This document shows positions 5,891 through 52,757 of a stretch of 64,000 bases of DNA, one piece after another; position 1 is the stretch's first letter, and each line of letters opens with the position of its first letter. The stretch is from Bradyrhizobium sp. SK17 (GTDB taxonomy: Bacteria > Pseudomonadota > Alphaproteobacteria > Rhizobiales > Xanthobacteraceae): positions 6,091,001 to 6,155,000 of the forward strand of contig NZ_CP025113.1 of assembly GCF_002831585.1 (NCBI RefSeq), read 5' to 3'. A program made the position numbers and the translations under genes. Under the pieces are notes generated by a model. That model was not told the DNA's origin, did not search any database, and saw only the letters and a program-made list of their open reading frames with translations.

Positions 5891-6363
5891 ACAGATATCC
5901 GCGTTCTCGCGACATGATTTGTCCGAGGTTTGCTCGTCGTTCCGCCCTCTCTTTGGCAGAGGGCGCAGGGAAAGCCGGGTGCCGATCGCACCCATGGGCC
6001 CCGTGCGAAGGGTAGAAAGCACGGGGGTAGGACCACAGGTGTAACCGGAGCAATCCGGCTTTCCCTGCGCGATGGGTTACGGCTTACTTCGTGCTCTCCC
6101 CGGCGAGACTGGGCTTGCTTGTCACCGCCCTTGCAAAACGCTTGCGCGTCCTGCGAGAGGACACCTGCCGCTAGGGCGTCAGGACCACACGACTTCACCG
6201 TCCGCCTCGGTCAAGCGTCGTCACTCGTGACCGCAGCGTCCACCGCATCTCACCGCAACACTCCTGACGATGCGCAAGCGCCCCTCGATCGGGTGAGACG
6301 GGCAGACCATACACCGGGTTACACTTCGGATAAAGCGAAATATTTCACGGATGGGGACTTGAC
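5891..6363. repeat. Long structured dispersed repeat, copy 1
   Basis: About 470 bp that recur with high similarity at 47030-47497, with the 3' part again at 60462-60597. It contains a perfect 16-bp inverted repeat (arms 5963-5978 and 6055-6070, GCGCAGGGAAAGCCGG and its complement) enclosing smaller hairpins: GGGTGC/GCACCC at 5977-5993, CCCCGTGC/GCACGGGG near 5999-6026, and CCGGA-GCAA-TCCGG just inside the right arm. Changes between copies preserve pairing. Open frames on both strands inside it look like by-products and lack usual starts. It fills most of the gap between the dehalogenase and the next small gene. It may be a structured RNA or a mobile palindromic element. Orientation is unknown. 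Confidence 0.75.
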
Positions 6364-45780: not shown

Positions 45781-45902
45781 GAGGTCAACTCCTGAGCAAA
45801 AACCGCGACTTAATCGCGGGCATAGCGAAAGCCCGGCTTATACACAGGCCCCCGGCCTCCGGCTAGAAGGATTCCTGCAATCGCGTCAAGCTCTTGCAGG
45901 AG

Positions 45903-45918
45903 AATGCGAATTCGCATT
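45903..45918. promoter_or_regulatory. 16-bp perfect palindrome before the alpha/beta hydrolase gene
   Basis: AATGCGAATTCGCATT is a perfect palindrome located 15 nt upstream of the hydrolase ATG and 120 bp from the divergent DAHP synthase start. It could be an operator for an unidentified regulator. No regulator gene is adjacent. Confidence 0.45.
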
Positions 45919-45932
45919 TGCTGGACCATACC

Positions 45933-46859
45933 ATGAATGCCGGGGAAATCGCCGTGGCCTCCGCCGCGCTGGACGACGTTTTTAGCGACGACATCGTCAT
46001 GCCGGCCGCGGACGGCTATCCGCTCGCCGCGACGCTGTTCCTGCCGCGCGGCAAGAAGCGCCACGCCGTCCTGATCAACTCGGCGACCGCAGTGCCCCGC
46101 AAGGTCTATCGCGGCTTTGCCGGCTACCTCGCCCGCCGCGGCTCGGCGGTGCTGACCTATGACTACCGCGGCACCGGCGACAGCAGGCCGATGGCGGCGA
46201 CCGGCCGCAACAGGCCGAAGTCGCTGGCCGGCTTCAAGGCCACGATGGCGGACTGGGCCGCGCTCGACGCCACCGCCGCGGTGCGCTGGATGCGCGAGCG
46301 CTACCGCGACCTGCCCTTCGCCTATGTCGGCCACTCCTTCGGCGGCCAGGCGCTCGGCCTGTTGCCCAACAATACCGAGATCCCGCGTGCGCTGCTGGTC
46401 GCGGCGCAGGCCGCACATTGGAAACTGATGGCCTCGCCCGAGCGCTATCGCGTGGTTGCCTTCATGAACGGCATCGGCCTGCCGCTGGCGCGCACGCTCG
46501 GCTATGTGCCGGGCTGGTCCGGCCTCGGCATGGACCTGCCGGGGGGCGTGTTCGAGCAGTGGCGCGGCTGGGTGATGCGCGAGCGCTATCTGCTCGACGA
46601 TCCAGCGTTGGCCGCGCGCGAGAATTTTCCGAAGTTCAAGGGCAGGCTGCGTGCGATCAGCATGACCGACGACACCTGGGCGACGCGGCCCGCGGTCGAG
46701 CTGCTGTGCTCGGCCTTCACCTCGATCACGCCCGAGATCATCGCCATCAGTCCCACCGATGTCGGCGCCAAGACGGTCGGCCATTTCGGCTTCTTCCGCA
46801 ACGACCACCGCGACACGCTGTGGCGCGGCGCCGCGGAATGGCTGGAGGTGGAAGGATAG
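45933..46859 (+). CDS. Alpha/beta hydrolase family protein (3' end duplicated downstream)
   Basis: Serine hydrolase of 308 residues from ATG 45933 (MNAGEIAVASAAL). A TTG at 45894 would add 13 codons. After a strand-rich N-terminus (DGYPLAATLFLPRGKKRHAVLIN) come LTYDYRGTGDSRP and the nucleophile elbow YVGHSFGGQALGL with Ser near 139. The C-terminal His is in KTVGHFGFF near 282. The sequence resembles the YheT/BAAT-type 'predicted alpha/beta hydrolase' group, and the substrate is unknown. Its last 291 coding bases plus 24 bp are repeated at 50065-50379 with 9 mismatches, so this junction is probably where a mobile segment inserted and rebuilt the gene's end. Confidence 0.88.
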   Translation: MNAGEIAVASAALDDVFSDDIVMPAADGYPLAATLFLPRGKKRHAVLINSATAVPRKVYRGFAGYLARRGSAVLTYDYRGTGDSRPMAATGRNRPKSLAGFKATMADWAALDATAAVRWMRERYRDLPFAYVGHSFGGQALGLLPNNTEIPRALLVAAQAAHWKLMASPERYRVVAFMNGIGLPLARTLGYVPGWSGLGMDLPGGVFEQWRGWVMRERYLLDDPALAARENFPKFKGRLRAISMTDDTWATRPAVELLCSAFTSITPEIIAISPTDVGAKTVGHFGFFRNDHRDTLWRGAAEWLEVEG

Positions 46860-46883
46860 ACGCGAGTTTTCACCGGTGTCGTC
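46569..46883 (+). repeat. 315-bp direct repeat, left copy (hydrolase 3' end)
   Basis: Aligns without gaps to 50065-50379, with 9 mismatches by eye (about 97% identity). It starts tgggtgatgcgcgagcg and ends ttcaccggtgtcgtc, after which the flanks differ completely. It brackets the insert 46884-50064. Confidence 0.9.
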
Positions 46884-46910
46884 GCATCGCCAAGCAGTCC
46901 CAACCCAGGT

Positions 46911-47013
46911 GTCATCGCCCGGCTCGACCGGGCGATCCAGTATTCCAGAGGCCGCGGTGCTTGAGCCGTGAAGCCGCGGCGTACTGGATCGCCCGGTCGA
47001 GCCGGACGATGAC
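46911..47013. repeat. Palindromic repeat with 32-nt arms
   Basis: Arms at 46911-46942 and 46982-47013, built on gtcatcgcccggctcgaccg and gatccagta, are nearly perfectly complementary. The inner segment has a second stem (gccgcggt/aagccgcggc). It lies at the left edge of the insert. Confidence 0.75.
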
Positions 47014-47029
47014 AGTGTAGGTGTGGACA

Positions 47030-47497
47030 CAGCTTCGCATTCTCGCGACATGAATCGTCCGAGCCTTGCTCTTCGTTTCGCCGCTCTGAATCAGAGGGCG
47101 CAGGGAAAGCCGGGTGCCGATCGCACCCATGGGTCCCGTGCAACAAAGAGCACGGGAGGTAGGACCACAGGTGTAACCGGGAACATCCCGGCTTTCCCTG
47201 CGCGATGGGTTACGGCTTATTTCGTGCTCTCCCCGGCGAGACTGGGCTTGCTTGTCACCGCCCTCGCAACGCGCACCGCGCAATGCGACGAGACACCTGC
47301 CGCTAGGGCGTCAGGACCACACGACTTCACCGTCCGCCTTGATCACGCGTCGTCACTCGTGACCTCGGCGTCTACCGCATCTCACCGCAACACTCCTGAC
47401 GATGCGCAGCGCCCCTCGATCGGGTGAGACGCACATATTGAACATCTGAGTTGGGTCAAACACCAAGCGGAATATTTTCCGCACGGGGACTGGACAG
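47030..47497. repeat. Long structured dispersed repeat, copy 2
   Basis: Corresponds over nearly its full length to 5891-6363. The 16-bp inverted arms are at 47098-47113 and 47188-47203, identical in sequence to copy 1. Inner stems are kept despite substitutions: TCCCGTGC/GCACGGGA replaces CCCCGTGC/GCACGGGG. GCGGAA/TTCCGC brackets a loop at the far end (about 47468-47483). Open frames inside it are not regarded as genes. It is located in the insert, upstream of the membrane-protein gene. Confidence 0.75.
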
Positions 47498-47705
47498 GGG
47501 TAATCACTTTGATCTAATTGGGGAATTTCGCGCTTTGGCGCAGAGCGGTCTTAGCCGTTCTCTCTTGTGTAAACCGCATTTGGGAATCTCAGCGCATGGC
47601 TGCCCGTTTTGGGAACAAGCATGTGGAAGGACCCTGTGCAGCTGAAAGCTGCCTACCAAACTTCCATATAATCATCGGAACCAAGGCGGCAGAGGACGAA
47701 AGTGT
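47498..47705. other. Leader region of the island membrane-protein gene
   Basis: About 200 bp with A/T-richer patches (ttccatataatcatcgg near 47660-47676, with tataat as a possible -10 element). A short open frame runs through it but has no ribosome site or recognisable protein pattern. The promoter of the following gene is probably here. Confidence 0.35.
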
Positions 47706-48620
47706 ATGGGCAAGAACCGCGGCAAACAGAGGCCGGCGACGCAACCGAAGCAAAAAAGCACTCGCACGGCGGACGAGAGTGCAAGTCTCTCAGTTTCCAA
47801 TCTGGTCCCGCCGCAGCAATCTAGCGTGCCGTTGGAAGCCGCGACACCCATTGATGCTATCGCGCAAGCCAACCTGCGGCTAACTCGCTGGTTGGTGATA
47901 TGGACCGCTGTACTCGCAATCGTCGCTGTCGTCACTACTGGCGTTGGCTACGTGCAATGGAGAGCGTTGCTCAAGACTGATGGCACAACGCGCGAAGCGT
48001 TCACGGCAGTCCAACGGCCCTTCATCATTGCGACTGGTCTAGCGGCATCCCAAGACCTTCCGGGCTATTGGAGCTTTCAGACGATTTTGGAGAACACTGG
48101 CGGCACGCCCACTAAGAACATGACCGTCACAACTGCGGTATCGTTCTCCGTGCCTGTGTTACCCGATAGCCCTGATGATCCTGGAGAATTGAAAAAGCAG
48201 TCGAGCGAAGCTTATCCAACTGTGACCAACCACTTCATCGGACCTCACGGCAAGGTAGCGGTTGACGCAATTTCGCTGATCACCAAAACTCTTGAAGAGA
48301 TGGCCGACAACCGAGCCGACTTCTTTGTGTATGGAATTGCAAGGTACAATGACCAATTCGCTGAGACCACCGAACGTCTAACCAAGTTCTGTTTTGTGGT
48401 GCGCCCGTATAAGGAAAAGAGCGGTTTGACGCTTCAAAATCGTGGTCTCTGCCACCACTGGAATTGTGGCGACGAAGATTGCCAACGAGACAAACGAGGG
48501 TATCAAGCGGAGCTAGCGGAGTTTCTGGGGAAGAATCCCGCTGCAAAGGGTATCGTTCGAGATTTGCCCATCGCGGCTATCATCCCCTTCTACCCGGTCC
48601 CCCTCATTAAGGCGCAGTGA
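47706..48620 (+). CDS. Hypothetical membrane-anchored protein of the insert
   Basis: 304 residues; ATG 47706 preceded by GAGGACGAAAGTGT. A polar, Lys/Arg/Gln-rich N-terminus (about 1-55) precedes one membrane helix at about 59-82 (WLVIWTAVLAIVAVVTTGVGYVQW). A soluble domain of some 220 residues follows, beginning REAFTAVQRPFI and containing ENTGGTPTKNMTV, which is likely a beta-rich periplasmic or cytoplasmic domain. CFVVRPYKEK and a Cys-rich patch GLCHHWNCGDEDCQRDKRG lie near the C-terminus. The single-helix, 'VQRPFI...NTGGTPxKN' layout is seen in uncharacterised proteins of rhizobial accessory regions. No function can be assigned. Base composition differs from the flanking genes, consistent with transfer. 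Confidence 0.75.
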   Translation: MGKNRGKQRPATQPKQKSTRTADESASLSVSNLVPPQQSSVPLEAATPIDAIAQANLRLTRWLVIWTAVLAIVAVVTTGVGYVQWRALLKTDGTTREAFTAVQRPFIIATGLAASQDLPGYWSFQTILENTGGTPTKNMTVTTAVSFSVPVLPDSPDDPGELKKQSSEAYPTVTNHFIGPHGKVAVDAISLITKTLEEMADNRADFFVYGIARYNDQFAETTERLTKFCFVVRPYKEKSGLTLQNRGLCHHWNCGDEDCQRDKRGYQAELAEFLGKNPAAKGIVRDLPIAAIIPFYPVPLIKAQ

Positions 48621-48690
48621 TGCGGTGCCCGGAGTTAGCCCATAAGCCAAAAACAACACCGTCTACTTGGTAGCCGAGAAGGTAGCTTCG

Positions 48691-49246
48691 ATGCGGTCGA
48701 CCCAGCGACTTGCCAAAGGAGTGCGCACGGAACGCCTCGCGCCTGCATTTCGCATTCCGCTCGCTGGCTCGGAGCTACAGACCCTTGGAGAACTGTGCGC
48801 GATTCAAGGACAGGTCTAACATTTGCCGGTCCATACTCTGCACTATGTTCCGGACCTGCCATTAGAAACAGCTCGTACAATGCTAGCGTCAAGTAGCATC
48901 CATACGAATGCAAGGATATGGATCGAAGTGCTTCGTGCGAAATGCCACGATCAATCGATTTTACGAGCAGCGGAAGAAGCCTTTGATTTGGTTGAAAGCA
49001 CCACCAAGGGGAGAAACGACTTCGTTCACGCAATTTTTGCCACCTCCATGGGAAAATATGTGAGTGCTTGGCGTTGGTCCGAAAGGCACGAAGCACCGGA
49101 GAGCGAAGCAGAACGACGCCATCGCAGTGCGCACCCGAGATATCAAAAAGAAGCGACCAGTCTCTGACTTGATCTCGGTAGGCAACGACGACGCAAGACT
49201 ATCCCTGCTGCTCTCGGAAATTGCCTCCGAGTTCCTGCCGGATTAG
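48691..49246 (+). pseudogene. Disrupted hypothetical gene (in-frame stop and frameshift)
   Basis: Reading from the ATG at 48691, a protein-like sequence (MRSTQRLAKGVRTERL...ELQTLGELCAIQGQV) meets TAA at 48817-48819. It then continues in the same frame as PVHTLHYVPDLPLETARTML...IWIEVLRAKCHDQSILRAAEEAFDLVESTTKGRNDFVHAIFAT. Near 49064-49100 the coding pattern moves to another frame, reading GPKGTKHRRAKQNDAIAVRTRDIKKKRPVSDL and ending ASEFLPD at 49246. Two independent lesions indicate decay. The GRNDFVHAIF motif resembles the (R)N-x-x-H patterns of some abortive-infection or HEPN-like proteins, but this is weak. No family is assigned. Confidence 0.6.
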
Positions 49247-49318
49247 GTGCTCCACAATCGGCGGCCTACAGCGCATTCAATGGCCCCCGTTGACTCGGGC
49301 GATGCGCCTTCTATGGGA

Positions 49319-49984
49319 TCATTTCAGCTTGCCTTCGGGCGCCTCGGCTGCCGCCTTGACGCCCTTCTTAATCTTCGCCGTTAATACGTAGAGAAAGTCG
49401 CCCAGCGCCTTTGCAAATTCTACAACCTGCTGTGCTTGTTCTGGGGTGACATGCGGGTTTTCTTCATCCGCGTGCCGCACATTGTTAGCCTCAAGTCTCA
49501 CGGCGTGTGCCCATTTGCCCATGCCCTCAGTAAGAAGGTGCTCAGACACGGCCTCGTCAATTCGGGAGTAGAGAGACCCTTCTTTCAATCCTTGGTCCTT
49601 CAGCATTGCATCGATAGAGGATGCCGCCATCACAGCAGCAGCATCCGGGGCGTGCAATGTTTCAAGCGCCTGTCGCAAATAGCTGCGCGCTGACGGCGGC
49701 AATGCCTCATCGACGGCGATGGGTTCGGGGAAAATTCTCTCGACATTCAAATCCTTCACGAACCCATGGCCCGGATTAGGTCGTGCGACCAGTCTGCACT
49801 GAGCCAATAAAAGGTTCCCGCAGGATGAGCAGCGCACGGCAGCCCATTGCCTCGCCCTCAAATTGTCGCCAGGTTCCTCAAGATGGGCGCTAAGCCAAAT
49901 TGGCGATAACTGTGGCTTGGCGATCTGGCATCTCGGACACCGATCGAGGCCGGTAAGATCACCATCAACAGTCATCTTTCCCAT
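49319..49984 (-). CDS. DUF4145 domain-containing protein
   Basis: 221 residues from ATG 49982-49984 (MGKMTVDGDLTGLDRCPRC), preceded by AAGGGGGCACAGC at good spacing. An ATG at 50041 would lie next to the repeat and lacks such a site. An N-terminal zinc-ribbon-like part has CPRC and CSSC (about 15-62). The DUF4145 helical domain (about 100-210) follows, with PSARSYLRQALETLHAPDAAAVMAASSIDAMLKDQGL, SLYSRIDEAV and LEANNVRHADEENPHVTPEQAQQVVEFAKAL. The family is frequently found on its own or fused to restriction and defence proteins, and its biochemistry is unsettled. It is antisense to its island neighbours. Confidence 0.8.
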   Translation of the reverse strand: MGKMTVDGDLTGLDRCPRCQIAKPQLSPIWLSAHLEEPGDNLRARQWAAVRCSSCGNLLLAQCRLVARPNPGHGFVKDLNVERIFPEPIAVDEALPPSARSYLRQALETLHAPDAAAVMAASSIDAMLKDQGLKEGSLYSRIDEAVSEHLLTEGMGKWAHAVRLEANNVRHADEENPHVTPEQAQQVVEFAKALGDFLYVLTAKIKKGVKAAAEAPEGKLK

Positions 49985-50064
49985 GCTGTGCCCCCTTGTG
50001 GCGCTCCGCCATTTCCCACGCCGCGTTTGCAATCCGGCCATTGGGACTTACAGTAGGGTGAGAT

Positions 50065-50379
50065 TGGGTGATGCGCGAGCGCTATCTGCTCGACGATCCC
50101 GCGTTGGCCGCGCGCGAGAATTTTCCGAAATTCAAAGGCCGGCTGCGCGCGATCAGCATGACCGACGACACCTGGGCGACGCGGCCTGCGGTCGAATTGC
50201 TGTGCTCGGCCTTCACCTCGATCACGCCCGAGATCATCGCCATCAGTCCCACCGATGTCGGCGCCAAGACGGTCGGCCATTTCGGCTTCTTCCGCAACGA
50301 CCACCGCGACACGCTGTGGCGCGGCGCCGCGGAATGGCTGGAGGCGGAAGGATAGACGCGAGTTTTCACCGGTGTCGTC
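50065..50379 (+). repeat. 315-bp direct repeat, right copy
   Basis: Right-hand counterpart of 46569-46883, with 9 mismatches. It marks the right edge of the insert. Confidence 0.9.
50068..50355 (+). pseudogene. Duplicated 3' fragment of the alpha/beta hydrolase gene
   Basis: Codes for the last 95 residues of the hydrolase (MRERYLLDDPALAARENFPK to EWLEAEG) with one conservative difference (AEG for VEG at the end). Otherwise only silent or near-silent changes are seen. It has no upstream part, ribosome site or promoter of its own, so it is a remnant, probably the original chromosomal 3' end displaced by the insertion. It lacks the nucleophile Ser and cannot be active. Confidence 0.85.
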
Positions 50380-50399
50380 CTGGCGAAAGCCAGGACGAC
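50374..50399. repeat. 11-bp-stem hairpin with GAAA loop
   Basis: A perfect 11-bp stem (arms 50374-50384 and 50389-50399, gtcgtcctggc and its complement) closed by a GAAA tetraloop. It is a common rhizobial palindrome, located just after the right-hand repeat, and may act as a transcript end. Confidence 0.8.
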
Positions 50400-50483
50400 G
50401 ATGCGGATGATTCTCGCGCGATACCGCGATACAATGCGCCGTCTCAGCCGAGGGACATGCTCCGGGAGCGACGAGTCGATTCG

Positions 50484-50777
50484 ATGAAATGCCTTGCTCT
50501 GGCATGTTTGGCCTGTCTGCTGGCGTCGACGTTGGCCATGGCGTGTCAGTTCGACACGGACTGCCAGCCCGGCAGTCAGTGCCTGAAGGCGTCCTCAAGC
50601 ATCTACGGGGTTTGCGCAGGCGGCCTGTCGCCCGGCAACGCCAACGATCGGCAGCCGACGCAATTTCCGCAAGATATCAACGGGACCTACGGCAACACCT
50701 GCTCGTTCGATACCGATTGCGGTGTCAGCAGCCATTGCATCAAGCAGGACACGATCCAGGGCGTCTGCATGAAGTAG
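50484..50777 (+). CDS. Secreted Cys-rich tandem-repeat protein
   Basis: 97 residues; ATG 50484 opens MKCLALACLACLLASTLAMA, a signal peptide probably cleaved before CQFD. The mature protein has two copies of a Cys pattern: CQFDTDCQPGSQCLK...GVC and CSFDTDCGVSSHCIK...GVC, each with four Cys spaced C-x5-C-x5-C-x8/9-C, joined by a Pro/Asn/Gln-rich linker. The spacing suggests two small disulfide-knotted units in the periplasm or outside. I know no function for it. The gene stands alone just outside the island edge. Confidence 0.8.
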   Translation: MKCLALACLACLLASTLAMACQFDTDCQPGSQCLKASSSIYGVCAGGLSPGNANDRQPTQFPQDINGTYGNTCSFDTDCGVSSHCIKQDTIQGVCMK

Positions 50778-50888
50778 CTGCTCGCGCGGCCGATGTGGCA
50801 GCGGATGACGCTTCCGCCTTCGTAAGCTGAACTATGGCGGGCAGCACACCGATCCGCTCAGCGATTTGAGACCTTCGGTCCGACGCTC

Positions 50889-51110
50889 CTACTGATACGT
50901 CGTCGGCTTGTGGCGGCTCAATTCGCCGTGCGCTTCAGCTTCGCTCTTACCGTTGCCGCTGCCATTGCCGTTCCCGTTGGCGGCCTTGCGCGCCAGCAAT
51001 TCCTTTTCGGCCTGGTACCAGAGTTGATCCATCTGGCCCGGCGGTTCGCCGGCATCCTTCCACAGCTCATAGGCGCGGGTGCGAATTTCTTGCTCGGTGG
51101 GACCTGTCAT
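50889..51110 (-). CDS. DUF2934 domain-containing small protein
   Basis: 73 residues from ATG 51108-51110 (MTGPTEQEIRTRAYELWKDAGEPPG). An ATG at 51125 would add five residues. The N-terminal pattern IRxRAYELWxxAGxPxGxxxxxWxxAExEL is diagnostic of DUF2934, widespread in rhizobia, with no known function. The C-terminal third is a low-complexity Asn/Gly run followed by a polar tail. Confidence 0.88.
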   Translation of the reverse strand: MTGPTEQEIRTRAYELWKDAGEPPGQMDQLWYQAEKELLARKAANGNGNGSGNGKSEAEAHGELSRHKPTTYQ

Positions 51111-51290
51111 GGGCGGCTCCCTCAATCCTTGGATTTACAAAATGGTTTGCAAAAGGAACTTCCGGGCCGGCGCTATGTTCCAAAATGAATGCGGGCACGC
51201 CCCCGCTGCGATGTTCCCGCAATGCTGCACCCAACGCCGCGCCACGGCAAGATTGTCGCGCGGCAACTCACCGTTTCCGGTCGCAATATC

Positions 51291-52757
51291 TCAGCCGGTC
51301 GAGCCGCGCGGTGCCTCACCATTGAGCAGCACCGAGTGGCGGCGGCCGTAGGCGAAGTAGAGGCCGAGGCCGATCACCAGCCAGACGATGAGACGCAGCC
51401 AAGTCTCCCAAGGCAGGAATACCATCAGCAGGATCGAGAAGCCCATGCCGAGCAGCGGCACCACCGGCACCGCAGGCGTGCGGAACGGACGCGTGACCTG
51501 GGCATCGCTCCGGCGCAGATAGATCACCGCGCCGCAGACCAGCACGAACGCGAACAGCGTGCCGATCGAGACCATTTCACCCAGGATGTCGATCGGGGTC
51601 AGCGCCGCGACGATCGCCACCACGATCCCGATCAGGAGCTGGCTCTTGTATGGCGTCCCGAGCGAGGGATGTACGTCGGAGAACATCCTGGGCAGCAGGC
51701 CGTCCTTGGCGATCTGGAAGAAGATGCGGCTCTGGCCATACAGCAGCACCAGGATGACCGTGGTGAGGCCGGACAGCGCGCCGATCTTGATCAGCACCGA
51801 GAACCACGTCTGGCCGATGACGTCGACACCCTTGGCGATCGGGTCGGCGACGCCGAGCTCGGTATAGGGCACGAGGCCAGTGAGCACGCCGGCGACCGCG
51901 ACATAAAGGATGGTGCAGATCAGCAGCGAGCCGAGGATGCCGATCGGCATGTCGGTCTGCGGATGCTTGGCTTCCTGCGCCGCGGTCGAGACCGCATCGA
52001 AGCCGATGAAGGCGAAGAACACCACCGAGGCGCCGCGCATCACGCCGGTCCAGCCGAACTGGCCGAACGTGCCGGTGTTGTCGGGAATGAAGGGATGCCA
52101 GTTCGCTGGCGTAACGTATCCAACGCCGAACAGGATGAAAGCCAGCACGACGGTGAGCTTGATGCCGACCATGACGTTGTTGAGCCGCGCCGATTCCCTG
52201 GTGCCGCCGATCAGCATGGCCGTGAGCAAGAGGACGATCAGCGCCGCCGGCAGATTGACGATGCCTTGCACGGTCGTGCCGTCCGGCAGCTTGGCCTCGG
52301 TCCAGGGCGCCGCGGCATATTGCGGCGGGATGTTGATGCCGAAATTATGCAGCAGCGAGACGATGTAGCCCGACCAGCCGACCGCGACGGTGGAGGCGCC
52401 CATCGCGTATTCGAGGATCAGGTCCCAGCCGATGATCCAGGCGAAGATCTCGCCCAAGGTCGCATAAGTATAGGTGTAAGTGCTGCCGGAGACCGGCAGC
52501 AGTGCCGCGAGCTCCGCGTAGCACAGGCCGACAAACGCACAGGCGATGCCGCCGACGACGAAGGAGAGCATGATGGCGGGGCCGGCGTAGTGCGCCGCAG
52601 CGGTGCCGGTGAGCACGAAGATGCCGGCGCCGATGATGCAGCCGATCCCGAGCGCCGTGATGCTCAGCGCGCCGAGCGTCTTGCCCAGCGCCTGCTCGCC
52701 CGCCTCGGCGATGATGGAGGCAACCGACTTGCGCGTCATCAAACCAAGGTCAGACAT
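51291..52757 (-). CDS. Amino acid permease, APC family (cationic amino acid transporter-like)
   Basis: Inner-membrane transporter of 488 residues with about twelve helices. Family signatures are ALGIGCIIGAGIFVLTGTAAAHYAGPA in helix 1 and CYAELAALLPVSGSTYTYTYATLGE in helix 3. ASVVFFAFIGFDAVSTAAQEAKHPQTDMPIGI in helix 6 is the CAT/YfnA pattern. The start at 52757 (MSDLGLMTRKS) follows AAGGGGATGCTGCC. It probably takes up an amino acid by proton symport, and specificity cannot be read. It is flanked by unrelated genes. Confidence 0.93.
   Translation of the reverse strand: MSDLGLMTRKSVASIIAEAGEQALGKTLGALSITALGIGCIIGAGIFVLTGTAAAHYAGPAIMLSFVVGGIACAFVGLCYAELAALLPVSGSTYTYTYATLGEIFAWIIGWDLILEYAMGASTVAVGWSGYIVSLLHNFGINIPPQYAAAPWTEAKLPDGTTVQGIVNLPAALIVLLLTAMLIGGTRESARLNNVMVGIKLTVVLAFILFGVGYVTPANWHPFIPDNTGTFGQFGWTGVMRGASVVFFAFIGFDAVSTAAQEAKHPQTDMPIGILGSLLICTILYVAVAGVLTGLVPYTELGVADPIAKGVDVIGQTWFSVLIKIGALSGLTTVILVLLYGQSRIFFQIAKDGLLPRMFSDVHPSLGTPYKSQLLIGIVVAIVAALTPIDILGEMVSIGTLFAFVLVCGAVIYLRRSDAQVTRPFRTPAVPVVPLLGMGFSILLMVFLPWETWLRLIVWLVIGLGLYFAYGRRHSVLLNGEAPRGSTG

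Follow-up and report, generated by a model that had tools for sequence, protein, structure and literature searches.

A duplicated hydrolase gene end around a cargo interval in Bradyrhizobium sp. SK17, probably left behind by ordinary recombination at a variable spot

Why does the 3' end of a single hydrolase gene stand twice on a chromosome, with about 3.2 kb of other DNA between the two copies? This arrangement occurs in a stretch of 64,000 nucleotides of Bradyrhizobium sp. SK17 (NCBI RefSeq assembly GCF_002831585.1, contig NZ_CP025113.1, positions 6,091,001 to 6,155,000), hereafter the window. The original prediction, made from the letters alone, took it for an integrative element with the hydrolase gene as its target and a replacement 3' end of its own, on the model of e14 in icd. 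In our analysis, the orphan gene tail is most likely the scar of ordinary recombination at a strain-variable spot and not a new mobile element, and two versions of the locus were probably joined in series without an integrase, in one direction or the other. Version A would read hydrolase, the repeat rep510 and the genes ins1 and ins2, and version B hydrolase, a small Cys-rich protein gene and a conserved marker, g50971 (and an amino acid permease gene). Searches of the own genome covered its two contigs (rated 100% complete) and the genus-wide searches 265 genomes, the own one included, while the detailed comparison was made on 31 loci of closer relatives, with one genome per species; by the hydrolase, the nearest relatives are Bradyrhizobium. 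Loci L073-L124 other than L080 and L115, which are more distant and in which the marker was unmatched, were set aside.

The two hydrolase ends lie where they had been predicted (46569-46883 and 50065-50379), and they align over 315 bp with zero gaps and nine mismatches. The left copy completes a hydrolase of 321 amino acids (aa) and the right copy is, as also proposed, an orphan fragment; when the own genome was searched by protein and all 17 candidates were scored, nothing came up beyond the complete gene and this fragment, which covers residues 225-321 at 98%. When the joint sequences are compared side by side, the identity between the copies begins at 46569/50065, with an abrupt break at 50064/50065, and from 46884/50380 onward the downstream DNA is unlike. 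Over 46702-46859 the copies are 99.4% identical, with one mismatch, whereas at the same positions neither exceeds about 88% identity to any of 22 relatives, so that they appear to be sister alleles from which every sampled species stands further off. Four states are common to both copies and unseen in these 22 relatives, and the mean identity of the copies to the relatives is 84-85%, compared with 88.2% among the relatives themselves. At eight of the nine differing positions the change is synonymous, which has a probability of 8e-5 to 3e-4 under the assumption that all changes are neutral, and, together with the unlike downstream neighbours, this makes it probable that one copy came from another allele, as had been suggested.

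The same comparison bears on the idea that the hydrolase 3' end was duplicated in tandem within one lineage, with cargo insertion and drift to follow, a history to which the head-to-tail orientation of the copies and the four states that they have in common would be well suited. However, a tandem copy should bring identical downstream DNA with it, and drift of a dead fragment predicts mostly non-synonymous changes, neither of which agrees with the unlike downstream DNA and the nearly all silent differences. On these two grounds a simple tandem duplication was rejected, and we consider this history in any form highly improbable.

The intervening DNA is not wholly foreign to the site, given that in a complete genome of another, related species (G182) the same locus is colinear with window 47036-49247, at 82.5% identity over 2229 bp. 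There, a single hydrolase (C1:2698436-2699400) is followed by rep510, ins1 (C1:2696646-2697554) and ins2, and matched piecewise the likeness covers 47033-47546, 47706-48620 and 48621-49247. Most of the supposed insert thus occupies the same locus in another species, minus the right repeat. The expectation of a low-GC (guanine plus cytosine) insert of unrelated genes held for composition, which is 0.548 over 47547-50064 against 0.684 in the hydrolase, but not for the origin of the whole interval. Matches of ins1 were found in 11 of the 265 genomes (own included), the sole close full-length one being that of G182 (82%), with a partial match in G163 (66%); ins2 has an internal stop and then loses its frame in the window and is intact in G182. 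Taken individually, 49248-50064 and 50380-50887 were unmatched in G182, and the DUF4145 gene that ends the cargo was unmatched at the G182 locus, both by protein and by DNA. DUF4145 matches occurred in 10 of the 265 genomes, own included, with 49-53% identity in G174, G122 and G188 and 21-32% in the remainder, and the stretches around the matches in those three genomes (15, 16 and 3.1 kb, respectively) contained neither the hydrolase nor rep510.

On the other side, the right copy is followed by a hairpin, the Cys-rich gene, the marker and the permease, so that the copy sits in a hydrolase context of its own. Many of the relatives whose sequences were compared by eye have a hairpin resembling the one at 50374..50399 after the stop codon of their hydrolase, and Rfam gave only a weak, sub-threshold match for it. 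Hydrolase and marker were found on one stretch in 28 of the 31 relative loci (L053 and L054 end early, and L201 lacks the marker), and in three of these 28 (G152, G199 and G243) the Cys-rich gene adjoins the hydrolase, with a flank identity of 79-80%. A cupin gene is matched in 27 of the 28 loci, in one case over just 28 aa; the own genome offers nothing close to it, the best two matches reaching 32-40% over part of the protein. In G199 and G243 it follows the Cys-rich gene and precedes the marker, so its absence here would seem to be due to a separate deletion, which says nothing on the direction of the joining.

Could the copies nevertheless be the borders of an element? A degraded or trans-mobilised integrative element in the hydrolase, which replaced the gene's 3' end as e14 does in icd and whose integrase was lost or lies elsewhere, would match the layout, with a gene kept intact through the left copy, an orphan right tail and mostly silent differences, and a direct repeat of the target 3' end does stand at both borders. 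However, neither an integrase of its own nor identical borders in other hosts were seen. In line with what had been noted from the letters, a Pfam scan of all 10 open reading frames (ORFs) of at least 80 aa lying wholly between the copies revealed no integrase domain. No Phage_integrase match was found in the window, serine recombinases being outside the genome-wide search, and the closest such match in the genome (PF00589, C1:6188009) is ~46.6 kb to the right of the right copy. The gene ins1 was unmatched in the plasmid collection and the viral contigs (the phage collection was not searched for it), and for DUF4145 there were two phage matches, both weak, and none among the plasmids. Moreover, a second hydrolase 3' end was found in none of the 31 relative loci, of which 29 are long enough to reveal one (the L053 and L054 contigs stop behind the hydrolase); five have stray matches of 17-24 bp only. 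The condition under which the original prediction would itself have fallen, a region with both copies in all relatives, was thus not observed either. G182 itself has ins1 and ins2 at the locus with a single hydrolase end. Nor was the proposed insertion inside the gene borne out, as in all cargo loci examined the cargo starts behind rep510 or behind the hydrolase, and never within the gene. A site-specific element was thus discarded as the main account on the basis of G182 and of the missing second end among the compared relatives; the repeats probably do not bound an integrative element, and its degraded or trans-mobilised form appears quite improbable.

An integrase-free joining of versions A and B is favored because both contexts occur separately in relatives, the copies are allele-like, and no tyrosine integrase lies nearby. 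Of the three routes that the original prediction had left for an insert without integrase (degraded, mobilised in trans or acquired by homologous recombination), it is the last that finds support. DNA of a close relative, containing the hydrolase 3' end, rep510, ins1, ins2 and a terminal DUF4145 gene, would have come into a cell that had version B. There, a single homologous crossover within the hydrolase 3' end would have kept the gene whole, while the other side would have been sealed non-homologously at 50064/50065, and the resident hydrolase tail would have been displaced downstream as an orphan. The incoming piece may have been circularised and integrated by a single crossover, or the event may have been a homology-facilitated illegitimate recombination. 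The single-crossover form would fit the duplication better, considering that in the E. coli study of lacZ-end duplications true illegitimate events made up 4/60 and deleted DNA (PMC3240628).

The same product could have been reached in the reverse direction, with version A resident and a version B piece arriving from the right by homologous exchange around marker and permease and a non-homologous join beside DUF4145. For this sub-case speaks that rep510 is common behind the hydrolase (matches of at least about 395 bp between hydrolase and marker in 15 of the 28 loci) and that the permease is not behind the marker in the G182 stretch. However, the end product would be identical, so that the sequence cannot separate the two directions, and the flanks are uninformative, the left flank being 93.6% and the marker 93.1% identical to G182. 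We regard the reverse direction as a tentative possibility, on the unlikely side. An attempt to tell the resident copy by its base changes failed, as each copy has states that are rare among the relatives.

Several observations weigh against a joining of two versions. The synonymous test is overstated, since the working left copy would be under selection anyway, and the right-copy changes that are seemingly derived (46634, 46640 and 46644) are all synonymous with a P of just 0.014-0.025. Alleles of the relatives match both copies, and thus the base changes do not reveal which was resident. In addition, eight of the nine mismatches cluster within 98 bp, at 46604-46701 (P 0.012), which hints at gene conversion. 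The likeness of version A to G182 is not seamless either, 46884-47032 and 47547-47705 being individually unmatched there. Finally, version A together with DUF4145 was seen in none of the genomes, and an exact version B parent was not found either, so that the donor end and the joint are not visible before the joining.

Parallels for such a course exist. In E. coli conjugation, a lacZ-end duplication gave a product by polymerase chain reaction in 56/60 clones, and the 14 duplications sequenced measured 109-950 bp (PMC3240628). Our locus resembles this single crossover of truncated, recircularised DNA in its partial gene-end duplication (315 bp), with the incoming DNA between the copies and without an integrase; it differs in that the lacZ case was a laboratory plasmid under selection, whereas here we deal with a natural chromosomal locus for which donor and crossover are inferred. 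In the type VI secretion system (T6SS) effector genes of V. cholerae, displaced 3' ends were attributed to a proposed homology-facilitated illegitimate recombination (PMC5361080). There, as here, a new module stands behind a conserved upstream part, and the old 3' end and the downstream gene are pushed back; unlike those effector-immunity modules, which went through repeated rounds, the hydrolase product would be altered by one residue in a single round. Gene-content hotspots that lie between core genes and lack integrases are also known, and the core genes beside them show more homologous recombination (PMC5635113). Likewise, at our locus the cargo varies among relatives between conserved flanks, with no integrase at the window locus, but the published hotspots rest on within-species statistics, while our sample holds one genome per species and the integrase search concerns the own genome and not the relatives' loci. 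For e14 in icd, the duplication described is 165 bp long and shows 12 exchanges as well as two replacements of a conservative kind (PMC11148124). As in e14, the left copy keeps the gene whole, the right one is an orphan 3' end, and the differences are mostly silent; unlike e14, there is no integrase, no Pfam phage family among the scanned insert ORFs and no second copy in the compared relatives. A duplicated gene end that resembles the border of a mobile element can thus arise when two versions of a variable interval simply recombine, and orphan gene tails could mark past gene capture.

Between hydrolase and marker lies a cargo spot whose content is in part defence-like, as the cargo families found in the relatives indicate. 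The distance between the two varies from about 0.4 to 4.1 kb, and the accessory genes differ while the conserved neighbours on either side stay the same, in agreement with the expectation that relatives would differ in cargo. ORFs were listed for 14 of the 28 intervals, chiefly the longer ones (G243, with 1650 bp, was among those left out), and family searches were run on eight cargo proteins from six loci. We found a TIR protein with the PADLOC family TIR-TM in L066, a DUF4365 protein with PDC-M02A and another protein of PDC-M02B in G042, a guanylate cyclase-TPR protein that matched PycC weakly in G117 and a DUF6680 protein (CER78) in L062; both G182 proteins and a 404-aa protein of G049 had no family in these searches. 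By eye, three of the listed intervals (G070, G145 and G121) have no genes beyond repeats and cupin, G181 and G137 have small ORFs only, and G196 has transposase-like ORFs. The cargo in the window does not clearly belong to defence, with no PADLOC match better than E 0.04 for ins1, ins2 (in its G182 version) or DUF4145. The finding thus points to a Bradyrhizobium cargo spot with some defence-like genes, and none of the titles and abstracts listed by a literature search concerned such a spot. As a side observation, the draft contigs of L053 (B. tropiciagri SEMIA 6148) and L054 (Bradyrhizobium sp. NAS96.2) break just behind the hydrolase, perhaps at repeats.

By eye, cargo in the rep510-bearing cargo loci follows the right end of rep510, and in G243 the rep510 match is positioned behind the cupin gene. 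The first ~400 bp of the repeat have at least seven copies in the genome among the 40 of 185 candidates that were scored, with another window copy at about 5900-6300, and the repeat resembles copies across species. As a general cargo dock, rep510 was rejected, since six other own copies are without clear cargo (ORF listing and GC, by eye) and G239, at least, has cargo where rep510 is missing. It was also rejected as a structured RNA, given that there was no Rfam match and that the covariation term of the alignment fold (0.26) gave no support, with both-sided change in 8 of 91 pairs of the consensus fold. A title search of the literature found nothing relevant on such a Bradyrhizobium repeat. 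It is doubtful that, in this Bradyrhizobium group, the repeat behind the hydrolase is the docking edge of an integrase-free swap spot for small defence-type genes, with the orphan tail as the footprint of capture; if true, orphan hydrolase tails could date and count cargo swaps.

Table 1. Features at the hydrolase locus (window positions)
Feature	Position	Strand	Basis or remark
Conserved left neighbour, 462 aa	44392..45780	-	Matched in 72 of 73 related loci, 77-99% identity
Intact alpha/beta hydrolase, 321 aa + stop	45894..46862	+	Pfam Hydrolase_4, Abhydrolase_6, Abhydrolase_1 above cut-off
Left copy, hydrolase 3' end	46569..46883	+	Gapless self-alignment
Palindromic intergenic repeat, 33-nucleotide arms	46910..47014	.	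Dozens of genome matches
rep510, apparently non-coding repeat, left cargo edge here	47033..47546	+	
ins1, 304 aa	47706..48620	+	G182 orthologue, same locus
ins2, broken gene	48691..49247	+	Intact 184-aa relative in G182
DUF4145 gene, 240 aa as longest ORF	49319..50041	-	Pfam DUF4145, E 4.9e-11
Cargo end at apparently non-homologous joint 50064/50065, meeting hydrolase codon 226	50042..50064	.	
Right copy, orphan hydrolase 3' end	50065..50379	+	Alignment and protein search
Hairpin behind right copy	50374..50399	.	By-eye likeness to relatives' hairpins
Small Cys-rich protein gene	50489..50776	+	Adjoins hydrolase in G152, G199, G243
Conserved right marker g50971	50888..51190	+	3' of hydrolase in 28/31 relative loci
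Amino acid permease, right neighbour	51291..52757	-	Pfam AA_permease_2, E 2.5e-58

The remaining features of the locus are collected in Table 1. The left neighbour is presumably a class II DAHP synthase, and the permease stands behind the marker in 6 of the 31 relative loci (L192, L066, L196, L052, L197 and L198). The protein encoded by ins1 has, by eye, a membrane-like stretch, and a weak SLATT-like match far under the cut-off. A DNA match of the hydrolase was obtained in 253 of the 265 genus genomes, own included. In a search of these 265 genomes with at most two candidates scored in each, the own genome alone appeared twice among the places listed, and two matches were also counted in each of 17 other genomes, the second place being outside those listed. 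Two further cases were seen: in G036 (C1:3266788-3266934), a short match to the hydrolase C-terminus (57%) lies apart from the full copy and may be an orphan tail or a paralogue, and in L051 (G108), a single-contig genome, the hydrolase matches as two pieces ~0.8 kb apart.

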